Below are positions 5,160 to 51,506 of a DNA stretch of 51,506 nt, piece by piece; position 1 is the stretch's first letter, and the number at the start of each line of letters is the position of its first letter. The stretch lies in IMG/VR virus record IMGVR_UViG_3300045049_000394, positions 1 to 51,506 of that record; one strand, given 5' to 3'. Made by a program: the position numbers and the translations under genes. This stretch comes from a virus. Below the pieces are notes generated by a model. It worked only from the letters and a program-made list of their open reading frames with translations. It did not search any database and was not told the DNA's origin.

Positions 5160-5293
5160 TGGACACCGGGCGCGCCGTCGAGAACCCATGCGACAGCCAG
5201 CTCGTCATTGTCGATCGGGCCCTCGGGCACCAGCGGCGGCGGCACCCAATCAAGCGCCTTCGCCATCACCGTCACGTCGCCGTCGAAGTCCAT
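5156..5293 (-). CDS. Small acidic early protein (45 aa)
   Basis: Short ORF coupled at both ends: its ATG overlaps the preceding stop as TAATG and its stop overlaps the next ATG. It is acidic with a proline-rich middle (WVPPPLVPEGP). No domain recognised. Supported mainly by tight coupling and consistent GC-rich codon use. Confidence 0.5.
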   Translation of the reverse strand: MDFDGDVTVMAKALDWVPPPLVPEGPIDNDELAVAWVLDGAPGVQ

Positions 5294-5469
5294 TAGAACC
5301 TCCCCATGTTCTCGACGACCACCGGCAGCCCGACCACGGGCGCCATCACCTGCTCATGGCTCACCGCAATCGGCTCCTCGCTGAAGGGCGTCTCGGCGTA
5401 GTGCCGGTCGCACAGCAGGAAGCGCACCGCGGCGTCGCACTTGAGGCAGGTCCGAGTGGCGTTCGACAT
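5293..5469 (-). CDS. First gene of the leftward operon: small CxxC protein (58 aa), probably leaderless
   Basis: 58-aa product starting MSNATRTCLKCD with a second cysteine further on (LLCDRHYA), a possible zinc-binding motif. The ATG at 5469 lies six bases after the -10 box of the leftward promoter, where transcription should begin, so the mRNA is probably leaderless. As the first product made from the repressor-controlled leftward promoter it is a candidate early regulator. No family recognised. Confidence 0.65.
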   Translation of the reverse strand: MSNATRTCLKCDAAVRFLLCDRHYAETPFSEEPIAVSHEQVMAPVVGLPVVVENMGRF

Positions 5470-5475
5470 GAGTTG

Positions 5476-5504
5476 GTTATCGCATTAGGCAATATTCTGG
5501 TCAA
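5476..5504 (-). promoter_or_regulatory. Leftward early promoter (PL-like), leaderless
   Basis: Minus strand: -35 TTGACC (5504-5499), 17-base spacer, -10 GATAAC (5481-5476). The A of the first ATG is at 5469, where transcription should start. Operator O1 overlaps the spacer and -10, so a bound repressor would block RNA polymerase. Confidence 0.65.
5477..5496. promoter_or_regulatory. Immunity operator O1
   Basis: TTATCGCATTAGGCAATATT; the reverse strand contains ATTGCCTAATGCGATAA. It shares the core TATCGCATTA-S-GCAAT with O2 and lies over the -10 of the leftward promoter. Confidence 0.65.
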
Positions 5505-5510
5505 GAGAAA

Positions 5511-5529
5511 AATTGCGTAATGCGATATT
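5511..5529. promoter_or_regulatory. Immunity operator O2
   Basis: AATTGCGTAATGCGATATT, nearly identical to the reverse strand of O1 (one mismatch across the 16-base core). It lies just upstream of the -35 of the leftward promoter, so two repressor dimers could bind side by side. Confidence 0.65.
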
Positions 5530-5606
5530 CCGACGTGCGGCATTTTGTCGCATGGTGGGAACCGTGGGAAATAGGCTAGGAATTACAGGTGGAAGGGGGA
5601 TTTCGG

Positions 5607-6020
5607 ATGCCGGTGCTGGTGATCTCTCCGAACGAAGACGTGCGCCACGGCCTGCGCGAGCGGCTGGCTCCGCTCGGCGAGGCGATTCGCGCGCAGACCT
5701 ACCGTCAAGGTGCGGTGCTTGCGGAGCAGCACTGGCCGAGCGTGGCCGTGATTTGGTCGCCGCCAGGGGCGGATGCTGAGGTAGTGGAGCTGATTTTCCA
5801 GCTCCGGCGACTCAATAGAGACGTGCGGATCATCGTCGCTACGCCCTATTTCACGAATATGGGCACTGCAGCGCTGGTCGAGCACCTGCAGGTCGACGCC
5901 TACCTACTCGACACAGAGCTTGACGCGATTGCCGAGGAAGCGATGGGGGTGCCGGTAATCGTCGAGCGCGATCCGAAGCCGCCTACCCGCCACGGCGGGT
6001 CGTCGGCCGCTTGCCACTGA
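5607..6020 (+). CDS. Receiver-like (CheY-fold) protein lacking phosphorylation residues
   Basis: 137-aa protein following the receiver-domain pattern: beta1 VLVISPNED with acidic E10/D11, beta3 VAVIWSPP (46-53), beta4 RIIVATPY with T79, and beta5 VDAYLLD. The aspartate expected at the end of beta3 is replaced by W50/S51 and the lysine expected at the end of beta5 is missing, so it is an atypical, probably non-phosphorylated receiver. The start ATG at 5607 follows GGAAGGGGGA. It is transcribed away from the leftward operon, beginning next to operators O1/O2, and its 3' end overlaps the convergent repressor gene by 38 bp. That position suggests a role in the lysis-lysogeny switch, perhaps as an antirepressor (inference). 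Confidence 0.65.
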   Translation: MPVLVISPNEDVRHGLRERLAPLGEAIRAQTYRQGAVLAEQHWPSVAVIWSPPGADAEVVELIFQLRRLNRDVRIIVATPYFTNMGTAALVEHLQVDAYLLDTELDAIAEEAMGVPVIVERDPKPPTRHGGSSAACH

Positions 6021-6549
6021 CGCCAGTCGGAATCGGCGGGTCCTTTTTCCGATAGCCTTCTCGGGCGAGCGTATGCGTCGGCGGAGGCGGCGGCGCTACG
6101 GCCTCCGGCGGCGGCTCTCGCATGCCGTGCGTGGGAGCAGCCGGCTTCACGGTGGCCGCAACGCGATCGACATCGGCATTGCCCGGTACCACGACCCCCT
6201 CCAGGCCGGGGGCAATGACCATCTTCGCCAGCTCGAGGATCATCGCGCGCGCGTCCGTCTCGAACGCCGCCAGGATCGCATCGATGTGGTCAGCGGACAC
6301 GTTCTTCTTGCCGGACTCGAACGAGCTCAGGTCACCCTGGCTGATGCCGGTCTCGTCCTCCATCTTCTTCTGCGTCCAGCGCCGCGCCTTCCGTCCCCTT
6401 CGGATGAATTGTCCGACTAGGGCCCGATAGGTCACCTGAAAATCGGCTGTCTCCGTCGGTCCGGCCACCTTCCGGACCCTATCAACGATATCGCTATTTG
6501 CAATAAGCTCAGACGGATATTGTATTACGCTATTTTCCGATGTTGACAT
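5983..6549 (-). CDS. XRE-family phage repressor without peptidase domain
   Basis: 188-aa DNA-binding protein. Residues about 45-100 form an XRE/Cro-CI helix-turn-helix (ARRWTQKKMEDETG, then ISQGDLSSFESGKK). The C-terminal part is proline-rich and basic (EAVAPPPPPTH, KRPTTRRGG) with no S24/LexA-like Ser-Lys peptidase domain, so RecA-driven self-cleavage is unlikely. It is transcribed leftward, divergent from the Cro-like gene. Operators O3 and O4 lie inside its first 20 codons and O5 just before its start, which fits autoregulation. It is the likely lysogenic repressor by position and fold. Confidence 0.8.
   Translation of the reverse strand: MSTSENSVIQYPSELIANSDIVDRVRKVAGPTETADFQVTYRALVGQFIRRGRKARRWTQKKMEDETGISQGDLSSFESGKKNVSADHIDAILAAFETDARAMILELAKMVIAPGLEGVVVPGNADVDRVAATVKPAAPTHGMREPPPEAVAPPPPPTHTLAREGYRKKDPPIPTGVSGKRPTTRRGG
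6488..6504. promoter_or_regulatory. Immunity operator O3 (inside the repressor gene)
   Basis: ATATCGCTATTTGCAAT matches the reverse strand of O2 at 13 of 17 positions. Both outer half-sites (ATATCGC and GCAAT) are perfect. It covers about codons 15-20 of the repressor gene. Confidence 0.5.
6517..6535. promoter_or_regulatory. Weaker operator-like site O4
   Basis: ATATTGTATTACGCTATTT resembles O2 at about 11 of 17 positions. Within the repressor coding start and between O3 and O5; the spacing suggests a cooperative operator array. Confidence 0.35.
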
Positions 6550-6571
6550 TTATTGCCTAATGACATATCGC
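6543..6571 (+). promoter_or_regulatory. Rightward promoter (PR-like) of the Cro-like gene, leaderless
   Basis: A perfect -35 TTGACA (6543-6548), a 17-base spacer and a -10 beginning TAT (TATCGC, 6566-6571, a weak match). Six bases later is the ATG of the Cro-like gene at 6578, the same geometry as the leftward promoter. Operator O5 fills the spacer. The -35 overlaps the start codon of the divergent repressor gene. Confidence 0.55.
6552..6567. promoter_or_regulatory. Immunity operator O5
   Basis: ATTGCCTAATGACATA matches the reverse strand of O1 (ATTGCCTAATGCGATA) at 14 of 16 positions, in the same place relative to the -35 box as O1 in the leftward promoter. Confidence 0.6.
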
Positions 6572-6577
6572 TAAATC

Positions 6578-6841
6578 ATGCACCCACTGGCGGCGGCTAT
6601 CTCGGAGGCGGGTATTTCGCAGCAGGAGCTGTCCGAGATGGTGGCGGACCTTCGTCGGGTTCGGCCAAACGGCAGCCCTCTGCTGCTGGCGCAGTCGACC
6701 ATCAGCCAGATCTGCAGCTTCAGGCGACGCACCAGTCCCGAGGTGGCCGAAGCGATTGTCGCAGCGCTCAAGGGCCGGGTTCGGCTCACGGCCGCTGAGC
6801 TGGTGTTCGCCAAGAAGCCGTCGAAGAAGAGGGCCGCCTGA
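6578..6841 (+). CDS. Cro-like helix-turn-helix regulator
   Basis: 87-aa DNA-binding protein divergent from the repressor. The N-terminal 60 residues show an XRE/Cro pattern (AAAISEAGISQQELSEMV, then STISQICSFRRRTSPEVA) with a longer inter-helix loop than usual (LRRVRPNGSPLLL). The tail is basic (AKKPSKKRAA). The ATG at 6578 has no Shine-Dalgarno and lies where transcription from the rightward promoter should start, so the mRNA is probably leaderless. Likely represses the lysogenic repressor gene and opens the rightward operon. Confidence 0.75.
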   Translation: MHPLAAAISEAGISQQELSEMVADLRRVRPNGSPLLLAQSTISQICSFRRRTSPEVAEAIVAALKGRVRLTAAELVFAKKPSKKRAA

Positions 6842-6936
6842 TGCGCGCCCTCCGCTGCCTCTTCCCGGTGCTCGCGCTGCTGTGGTTCGCCGCGACGGTC
6901 GACGACCGCGACCTCGTTCGTTCGGGGGGCTGGTGA
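6841..6936 (+). CDS. Tiny membrane peptide (31 aa)
   Basis: Short ORF coupled by TGATG to the Cro-like gene and by TGATG to the next gene. It encodes MRALRC then a hydrophobic stretch (LFPVLALLWFAATV) and a charged end. Could be a single-pass peptide or simply a translational coupler. Supported only by overlaps and hydrophobicity. Confidence 0.4.
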   Translation: MRALRCLFPVLALLWFAATVDDRDLVRSGGW

Positions 6937-7436
6937 TGTCCACGAAAAAAAATTTGCCCCAAGGCCGACCCCCAACGCACCCCCAACCGAACGCGGGGGG
7001 CGATGGGGGGCCAGTTCAGCTCGAACTGCAAGTGTCCGCTTCTCCGACGGAAGCTGACGCCATTGCTGGCGTCTACCGGGCGCTGCAGGCTGCGGTCGAG
7101 AAGTTCGGTGGCGTGGTCGAGCTGGCCTGCGCGATGGGGAAAGGGAAGGACGAGGTCAGTCGCCGCGTGCGGCGCGCCGATGACACCAAGGGCGATACGC
7201 AGCGCGCGTTCCTCGACTTCCTCGGCTTTCTGAATTGGGAGGCGCGCGAGGTGTTCTTGGCCGAGCTGGCGCGCGAGTGGGGATATAAGCGGCCTGAGCC
7301 CCGCGCGCTGCCGACCGAGGCCGAGCAACTGCGCGCGCTCAAGGCCGAGCTGCTCGCCGCCGGCGGCGTCGGCGAGGACGTCATGAAGCGGGCGGCGCTG
7401 CGCGGCGGCTTCGAGCCGAACGCGTTTCGTAGGTAA
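6936..7436 (+). CDS. Probable phage regulatory protein (166 aa)
   Basis: The N-terminus is a Pro/Gly-rich disordered stretch. Residues about 40-115 are helical (AIAGVYRALQAAVEKFGG, then VELACAMGKGKDEVSRRVRR) with a helix-turn-helix-like core. Position (third gene of the rightward operon) and size resemble CII-like or replication-control proteins of other temperate phages. The family was not confirmed. A strong terminator follows directly, making it the last gene of the immediate-early rightward unit. Confidence 0.6.
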   Translation: MSTKKNLPQGRPPTHPQPNAGGDGGPVQLELQVSASPTEADAIAGVYRALQAAVEKFGGVVELACAMGKGKDEVSRRVRRADDTKGDTQRAFLDFLGFLNWEAREVFLAELAREWGYKRPEPRALPTEAEQLRALKAELLAAGGVGEDVMKRAALRGGFEPNAFRR

Positions 7437-45175: not shown

Positions 45176-45794
45176 CGCCGACGACGCCCGCGAGCTGTAC
45201 GAGCGCGGCGCCTACGCCTACCGGCTGCAGCACTGGGAAGACGCGCTCGACCGCTTCCAGGCTGCCTATGGCGCCTCGCAGGCGCCCGAGATCCTCTTCA
45301 ACATCGGCCAGTGCCAGCGCCAGCTCGGGCAGTTCGCCGCCGCCGCGCACAGCTACCGCGCGTACCTGGCGCAGGTGCCCGAAGGCGGCGACCGAGCTGC
45401 GGCCGAGCGCCTGGCGGCGGAGATGGACGCGGAAGCGGCGGCGGAGCGCGCGGCCAAGCAGCCGGCCGCCTCGCCGCCGCGAGCCGAAGTCGCGCCGCGC
45501 GACGCGCCCGCGGCGCCGCCGTCGGCCGCGGTCGATGCTCCCGCCCCGCGCCGGCGCACGCGCGTGGCCGGCTGGGTGCTCGGCGGCGTCGGCCTGGCGG
45601 TGGCGGCCGCCGGCGGCATCGTGCTCGCCCTGGGCGCCCGTGACGACGGGGCGGCGCGCCGGGCGGCGACGCTGCCCGACCAGCGCCAGCTCTGGGACCG
45701 CGGCGGCGAGCTACATACGGCCGGCATCGTGGCGCTGGCGGTGGGCGGTGCCGAGCTGGTCGCGGCCGGCGTGCTGCTGGCGAGGCGCCGCTGA
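45117..45794 (+). CDS. Exported TPR protein with C-terminal membrane segments, myxobacterial type (225 aa)
   Basis: GTG start at 45117. Signal peptide (LFFSLVAVMLLASPARA), a tetratricopeptide segment (ELYERGAYAYRLQHWEDALD, EILFNIGQCQRQLGQFAAAA), a long Ala/Pro/Arg linker, then two hydrophobic helices (VLGGVGLAVAAAGGIVLALG and IVALAVGGAELVAAGVLLA). This exact arrangement (signal, TPR, linker, two TMs) is a standard Myxococcota envelope protein. No role in phage growth is apparent. Confidence 0.65.
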   Translation: MRLFFSLVAVMLLASPARADADDARELYERGAYAYRLQHWEDALDRFQAAYGASQAPEILFNIGQCQRQLGQFAAAAHSYRAYLAQVPEGGDRAAAERLAAEMDAEAAAERAAKQPAASPPRAEVAPRDAPAAPPSAAVDAPAPRRRTRVAGWVLGGVGLAVAAAGGIVLALGARDDGAARRAATLPDQRQLWDRGGELHTAGIVALAVGGAELVAAGVLLARRR

Positions 45795-46378
45795 TGCGCC
45801 AGGCCGCGCTCCTCGTTGTGGCCTTTCTGAGCTGCCGCGGCGAGCACCCGACGTTCACGTGCGCCACCAGCGCGCAGTGCGGCGCTGGCGGCGTCTGCAT
45901 TATGGCAGCGTGCGCGTTCGCCGATGCGGCGTGCCCGAGCGGCTACCGATGGGACGTCAGCGCTCCTGGACGCGCTCGCTCCTGCGTCGAAGTCACCGAC
46001 ATGGCCACTCCACCGATCGTGGTCGATGACATGGCGGCGGCGCTCGACCAAGCCGCCGCCATCGACCTGGCGACGCCAACCGATCTGACCGGCGGCGTTC
46101 ACTTCTACCCAGACATCGAGGACCGGATCGAGGGCGAGCATTGCCTGCTGTGCCACGAGAAGGGGGGATCGGTCTCGCTCGTGCCGCTTATGTCCCCCGG
46201 AGATACCGCTGATAAGATGATGAATTACAACGCCATGGTCTCCGAGGTGCAGACCGTCAACGTGCTCACCATACTGCGGGACATGACCCACTGCCCAACC
46301 TGGATGCACCTGCCCTGCTACGTGCCAGACGCCGACCTGGACGTCTGGAAGGAGTGGGTGGCCAATCCCGTGCCATAG
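45794..46378 (+). CDS. Lipoprotein with single CxxCH haem-binding motif
   Basis: 194 aa. Signal plus lipobox (LLVVAFLSC, cysteine 14), Cys-rich segment (CATSAQCGAGGVCIMAAC) typical of Myxococcota lipoproteins, a DMA/DLA-rich linker, then FYPDIEDRIEGEHCLLCHEK with CLLCH at 117-121, a c-type cytochrome haem-binding site. Later cysteines (C167, C175) follow. A phage-encoded c-type-cytochrome-like lipoprotein is very unusual. ATG overlaps the preceding stop as TGATG. Confidence 0.65.
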   Translation: MRQAALLVVAFLSCRGEHPTFTCATSAQCGAGGVCIMAACAFADAACPSGYRWDVSAPGRARSCVEVTDMATPPIVVDDMAAALDQAAAIDLATPTDLTGGVHFYPDIEDRIEGEHCLLCHEKGGSVSLVPLMSPGDTADKMMNYNAMVSEVQTVNVLTILRDMTHCPTWMHLPCYVPDADLDVWKEWVANPVP

Positions 46379-48645: not shown

Positions 48646-48662
48646 TTATCGAATTACGTAAT
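48646..48662. promoter_or_regulatory. Immunity operator-like site O7 near attP
   Basis: TTATCGAATTACGTAAT matches the reverse strand of O2 (ATATCGCATTACGCAAT) at 14 of 17 positions. It lies 22 bp before the tRNA-Leu part and could link immunity to integration or excision. Confidence 0.5.
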
Positions 48663-48683: not shown

Positions 48684-48738
48684 TTCAGGTTCCTGTGGGA
48701 TAAAACCCGTGGGGGTTCGACCCCCCCCTTTCGCACCA
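48684..48738 (+). other. attP: Probable attP core: 3' half of tRNA-Leu(CAG)
   Basis: The sequence begins with anticodon loop TTCAGGT, continues TCCTG (anticodon stem), a long variable arm, GGGGG-TTCGACC-CCCCC (T arm), CTTTCGC and ACCA. This closely follows bacterial tRNA-Leu(CAG). There is no matching acceptor or D-arm upstream, so it is half a tRNA. It lies next to a tyrosine integrase gene, exactly what is expected for attP of a phage that integrates into a tRNA gene and restores its 3' end. Confidence 0.8.
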
Positions 48739-48776
48739 AAATCCAAGCACTTCCAGACTTACTGATTCAGCCTCGG

Positions 48777-51249: not shown

Positions 51250-51506
51250 CACCGCACCCCAGCCGCGCGCTTCTTCGCCTCGGCCTCGCGAACGCTCGCC
51301 AGGTGCACAGCCCTGATGCCAGGGCCCTTCCTGCACCCGCACGACGTCGTGCGGCCCATCGACACGATGTAGCGCCGCATCTTCTTGACGGTGCCGCACG
51401 TGCAGTGAAACCACGCCCATGTGCCCGGTCGATCGCGCGCGAATTTGGGATTCATCGCCGGGCCAAGGTACGTCAGCTGGCCGCGGCGGTCGCCGCGCTG
51501 GAGGCG
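51249..51506 (-). CDS. Phage zinc-ribbon protein, remainder (5' end lies at 1-145)
   Basis: Same gene as at 1-145 after closing the circle; this copy lacks only the first six codons at the contig edge. Zinc ribbon FHCTCGTVKKMRRYI, then TTSCGCRKG. The complete product is 91 aa with an N-terminal GRLTVL-like segment. See the entry at 1-145. Confidence 0.8.
   Translation of the reverse strand, partial: RLQRGDRRGQLTYLGPAMNPKFARDRPGTWAWFHCTCGTVKKMRRYIVSMGRTTSCGCRKGPGIRAVHLASVREAEAKKRAAGVR
51380..51506. repeat. Right copy of the 127-bp terminal direct repeat
   Basis: Exact copy of bases 1-127; see that entry. The gene crossing the junction reads through correctly only when the two copies are merged, which supports circularity. 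Confidence 0.95.

Follow-up and report, generated by a model that had tools for sequence, protein, structure and literature searches.

A receiver-like gene lacking phosphotransfer residues in the predicted immunity region of a temperate myovirus

The locus and its genome

Here we describe a gene for a 137-aa pseudo-receiver at positions 5607–6020 (+ strand) of the window, by which we mean the whole analysed stretch of 51,506 bases that makes up IMG/VR virus record IMGVR_UViG_3300045049_000394. The gene runs from an ATG at 5607–5609 to a stop codon at 6018–6020 and is preceded by a ribosome-binding site, AAGGGGG (5593–5599, +), that lies 7 nt before the ATG. Divergent from it is the first gene of the leftward operon (5293–5469, − strand; 58 aa, no assigned function), and at its other end it meets, tail to tail, the gene for a CI-like HTH repressor (5983–6549, −), with which it shares 38 bp (5983–6020, that is 6020 − 5983 + 1). 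A first-pass annotation of this DNA had described the open reading frame as divergent from the leftward operon and convergent, over 38 bp, with the repressor gene, and the coordinates confirm both points. The rightward operon opens with the gene for an 87-aa Cro-like HTH protein (6578–6841, +). With divergent genes for the repressor and the Cro-like protein, shared operators and a second operator cluster at the leftward operon, the region has a lambda-type arrangement, the operators being identified by sequence. A 166-aa protein encoded at the CII position (6936–7436) has no family match, and searches found no relatives of it.

RNA from the best leftward promoter would start near 6512, so that the likely start codon of the repressor is GTG 6468, which has an AGGG Shine-Dalgarno sequence at 6480–6477, and not ATG 6549; this start leaves the 38-bp overlap with the pseudo-receiver gene unchanged. 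The repressor consists only of the HTH and a predicted disordered tail, and Pfam, PHROGs and NCBIfam gave no S24/LexA-type peptidase match in it, in keeping with the earlier proposal that it is non-cleavable. A repressor with no peptidase domain is not expected to cleave itself in the SOS response and would have to be inactivated in some other way.

By codon bias, the pseudo-receiver reading frame is weakly coding-like (0.10 bits/codon, against 0.41–0.68 in the training genes), and the repressor (0.03) and cro-like (0.14 bits/codon) genes are just as atypical. If there were no gene at 5607–6020, a 514-bp gap would interrupt an otherwise compact genome. No intrinsic terminator was found in 5200–7000, where shuffles lead one to expect 1.4, by a crude scan to which Rho termination is invisible.

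Bases 1–127 of the record are identical to bases 51380–51506, and because these 127-bp ends are identical the phage genome is most likely complete and circular, with a length of 51,379 bp; the leftward operon therefore runs across the record ends to the integrase gene. Terminase, portal, contractile tail sheath and tyrosine integrase genes are all encoded in the window, and the virus is a temperate myovirus with DNA of 67% GC. Beside the integrase gene, 48700–48740 resembles the 3′ end of a tRNA (GTGGGGGTTCGACCCCC...CACCA) and is a probable attP core. Elsewhere, a lipoprotein-like protein (45794–46378) carries Cys-rich and DMATPP-type low-complexity stretches reminiscent of Myxococcota proteins, a weak hint at the host.

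Receiver relationship and active-site residues

Neither Pfam nor PHROGs gave a family match for the pseudo-receiver protein, which is unmatched by PF00072 (Response_reg) even at E 10 and is also missed by a six-frame PF00072 search; NCBIfam yields a single weak match (E 0.037), which is in register with an ActR/PrrA response regulator. As the standard libraries miss the protein, we built a receiver profile of our own from 34 sequences, receivers from two bacterial plasmids, with the sequences that had led to the choice of seeds excluded. With this HMM the pseudo-receiver ranks first among the 482 ORFs of the window (18.4 bits, E 5.4e-5; runner-up E 0.36) and keeps that place when the ORFs of 82 fetched phage loci are added to those of the window; 20,000 composition shuffles all scored lower (best shuffle 15.6 bits against 18.7). 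Comparison with receivers by hhalign gave a probability of 93% (E 3.4e-7), against at most 0.6% for the controls (six further proteins of the window and the pseudo-receiver sequence reversed). The similarity is strongest at residues 3–84, and the C-terminal part was aligned by hand. An alignment-free AlphaFold model, of low confidence (mean pLDDT 51), has a receiver-like order of elements, with the fifth strand not modelled. When this low-confidence model was searched against the PDB with Foldseek, receiver domains made up most of the top 50 matches (best E 1.5e-4); among viral structures, response regulators of phages and giant viruses occur in the top named matches, interspersed with chance ones. 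The CheY-like identity given in the first-pass annotation is thus above chance by both profile and hhalign comparison. Judged by these comparisons, the pseudo-receiver is a stand-alone protein with a real but remote relationship to receivers, and the modelling suggests that it is likely to have the receiver fold, (beta-alpha)5.

In an alignment to CheY, D12 and D13 are replaced by S7 and P8, the D57 column has no counterpart, falling in a gap that separates I49 from W50, P53 stands where the usual Pro would be, and T87 is kept as T79. Because automatic alignment misplaces the C-terminal gaps, K109 and Y106 were placed by a manual register (LQVDAYLLD against QAGASGYVVK), in which K109 is replaced by D102 and Y106 corresponds to Y99. 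The active site (DD, D, T, K) has lost four of its five residues, T79 alone being kept, and the allosteric Thr/Tyr coupling pair (T79, Y99) is retained. The phospho-acceptor Asp and the Lys, which had earlier been said to be missing, are indeed absent, the former in the CheY alignment and the latter in the manual register, and on these residues the protein is predicted to be no longer phosphorylatable.

The product of 5607–6020 falls within the definition of a pseudo-receiver, a receiver by sequence in which key phosphotransfer residues are absent (PMC12632262). The general view is that such proteins work by interacting with other proteins or by their level of expression and not by Asp phosphorylation, and about half of the bacterial ones retain the Thr/Tyr pair (PMC12632262). 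With bacterial pseudo-receivers such as FrzS, RitR, ChxR and NblR it has the receiver signature and the predicted fold in common, and it has likewise lost the phospho-acceptor and metal-binding residues while keeping the Thr/Tyr pair, as that half does; it differs from them in that it is encoded by a phage, stands alone, has diverged too far to match PF00072 and lies under predicted phage operators (PMC12632262, PMC4395418).

No close relative of the pseudo-receiver was detectable in phages, plasmids, IMG/VR or GTDB genomes, and no relative was present in the fetched phage loci; by these searches it is a single-genome orphan. Searches with its neighbours (the repressor, Cro-like, CII-position, exonuclease-like, helicase, primase and integrase genes) reached distant phages only, those with the repressor giving HTH-level matches only, and none of the 50 phages searched encodes a PF00072 receiver. 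The DNA pattern of the operator module matched 15 IMG/VR stretches, none of them with related proteins, and no close relative of the whole phage was found in any collection searched. Two weak plasmid tblastn matches were rejected as relatives, one (Arthrobacter, E 5) being a real NarL-type receiver and the other an antisense chance match, as was the receiver match in the one named phage record that was checked, OQ658365.1, which adjoins host genes.

Operator-like sites and mirror-image control modules

An operator consensus, the 15-bp palindrome ATYGCRTWAYGCRAT, was drawn from repeats and taken from the left-hand sites. Its two best matches genome-wide are at 5512–5526 (ATTGCGTAATGCGAT, 15/15), over the presumed pseudo-receiver promoter, and at 5479–5493 (ATCGCATTAGGCAAT, 14/15), within the left lytic promoter, a rank that is partly built in because the consensus came from those left-hand sites. 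More independent of the consensus are the sites on the right: those at 6519–6533 (ATTGTATTACGCTAT, 13/15, at the −10 of the repressor promoter), 6552–6566 (ATTGCCTAATGACAT, 12/15, in the right lytic promoter) and 6490–6504 (ATCGCTATTTGCAAT, 12/15) are among the next matches, and all lie at the repressor's own control region. By these sites, the pseudo-receiver gene sits inside the immunity region, between two operator-like clusters. A further 13/15 site at 48648–48662, in an AT-rich stretch near the integrase gene, could be a chance match (about 0.35 expected) or a link between the repressor and integration.

The left control module (5467–5592, +) and the right (6465–6580, −, aligned as its reverse complement) align over their full length with a local score of 64, against 49 for the best of 2000 Markov shuffles, and on this alignment they are mirror-image homologues. 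Each has an outward lytic promoter that contains an operator and a second operator on its inner side. The outward promoters are the left lytic candidate at 5476–5504 (−; TTGACC-17-GATAAC), with an RNA start close to ATG 5469, and the right lytic candidate at 6543–6571 (+; TTGACA-17-TATCGC). On the inner side of the right module lies the repressor promoter candidate (6519–6546, −; TCAACA-16-TACAAT), and we infer its mirror counterpart, a weak match at 5501–5529 (+; TCAAGA-17-GATATT), to be the promoter of the pseudo-receiver gene, for which no strong canonical sigma-70 promoter was found. Both outward lytic RNAs would begin a few bases at most from the first ATG (5469 and 6578), and this near coincidence of predicted starts with first ATGs suggests that the lytic mRNAs are leaderless.

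By position, the pseudo-receiver gene stands to the left module and left lytic promoter as the repressor gene stands to the right module and right lytic promoter, and because of this placement it is probably under repressor control. As the best operator of the genome lies over the presumed promoter, such control would silence the pseudo-receiver in an established lysogen and allow its expression early or in the course of induction.

The immunity region of lambda has the order OL-rexBA-cI-OR-cro. Here, as there, the interval between two operator clusters holds an extra gene in addition to that of the repressor, and the lytic promoters diverge; unlike in lambda, the extra gene is directed towards the repressor gene and has its start at the left operator, the modules are mirror copies with the repressor-type promoter side included, and the repressor is HTH only, with no match to the S24 autocleavage domain of lambda-type repressors. 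New relative to the first-pass annotation is that the pseudo-receiver gene starts beside the two genome-best operator-like sites, in a left module that mirrors the right (6465–6580).

Possible roles of the pseudo-receiver

Repressor control of the gene, as suggested by the predicted operator anatomy, would suit an antirepressor, a host-takeover protein or transcription interference equally well. The explanation that we favour, though tentatively, is that the gene encodes an early, repressor-controlled pseudo-receiver that binds its partner independently of phosphorylation, most likely as a decoy or mimic in host two-component signalling, and that its transcript may also oppose the repressor gene. 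The phage repressor would occupy the left operators and so shut the pseudo-receiver promoter together with the leftward lytic one; the pseudo-receiver would be made early in infection or once the repressor falls, and, as a phosphorylation-independent binding module, would engage a host two-component protein, either a kinase or a response regulator. Since no terminator was found between the convergent genes, the rightward transcript could run antisense into the repressor gene and oppose its expression, in which case the repressor and this transcript would form a double-negative loop. We prefer a role in host signalling because known pseudo-receivers act through signalling partners, an argument from the family, and in our judgement a host two-component mimic is somewhat likelier than an antirepressor.

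As an antirepressor, the role that the first-pass annotation had put foremost, the pseudo-receiver would bind the HTH repressor, strip it from its operators and cause or favour lytic growth. This is possible but unlikely. The position of the gene inside the immunity region fits it, and the operator-like sites upstream would give positive feedback; beyond position, it is argued solely from the need of a repressor with no recognisable peptidase domain for some other inactivator. However, there is no sequence or structural sign of an interaction, no relative shows the pair co-occurring, and no known antirepressor family in Pfam, PHROGs or NCBIfam matches the protein. We know of no characterised antirepressor with a receiver fold, and none emerged from searches of the open literature. 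The further suggestion of the first-pass annotation, that the protein might read a host signalling partner, likewise has its support in position. Vibriophage VP882 offers a parallel to an antirepressor whose availability is set by a host two-component protein, a scheme considered below: its VqmA-Qtip switch couples the choice between lysis and lysogeny to signals of the host by means of an accessory protein that targets the repressor (PMC10426928). Qtip, which sequesters the repressor, is the nearest functional analogue, with proteins unrelated to the present ones; VqmA is an autoinducer receptor, Qtip a small antirepressor and the VP882 repressor is also cleaved with RecA, and none has a receiver fold (PMC10426928).

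It is improbable that the protein is secondary and that the main role falls to the convergent transcript, interfering with or antisense to the repressor gene. Such a role would accord with the 38-bp overlap, the lack of a detected terminator and the resemblance of the left module to the repressor's own promoter region, but the preserved receiver-like sequence and the good ribosome-binding site imply selection on the protein, and the presumed promoter is weak. We also give a low probability to a cargo gene that is on in the lysogen and alters host signalling or excludes other phages. The gene does lie between left and right operators beside the repressor gene, as rexAB does in lambda, and its presumed promoter resembles that of the repressor; however, the genome-best operator over this promoter suggests that the gene is off while repressor is abundant, its orientation is opposite to that of the repressor gene, unlike rexAB, and PADLOC gave no match for its product. 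Quite doubtful is a scheme in which the aspartate-less receiver inactivates the repressor, binding to a host two-component protein sets how much of it is available, and the state of the phosphorelay would thereby decide induction without DNA damage. That there is no gene or no receiver here, and that a chance ORF in 67% GC DNA accounts for the absence of Pfam and PHROGs families, the absence of relatives and the weak codon bias, is very improbable given its first place among the 482 ORFs, a profile score beyond 20,000 shuffles, the hhalign result, the ribosome-binding site and the 514-bp gap that would otherwise be left.

A receiver-related protein in a myovirus has a precedent in the CheY-like AMG of Alteromonas phage V22, a metabolic gene whose annotation reads histidine kinase/response regulator; V22 is strictly lytic, and the gene has no link to an immunity region (PMC7289586). 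Searches of the open literature, which take in only a minority of subscription papers, turned up no lysis-lysogeny switch with a receiver-fold protein, and the main texts of two reviews of pseudo-receivers nowhere mention phages. To our knowledge, receiver-fold proteins have not been recognised as part of phage immunity regions. Should the pseudo-receiver bind the repressor, it would represent a new antirepressor class, one linked to the signalling of the host; should its partner be a host kinase or regulator, it would be a two-component mimic of phage origin.
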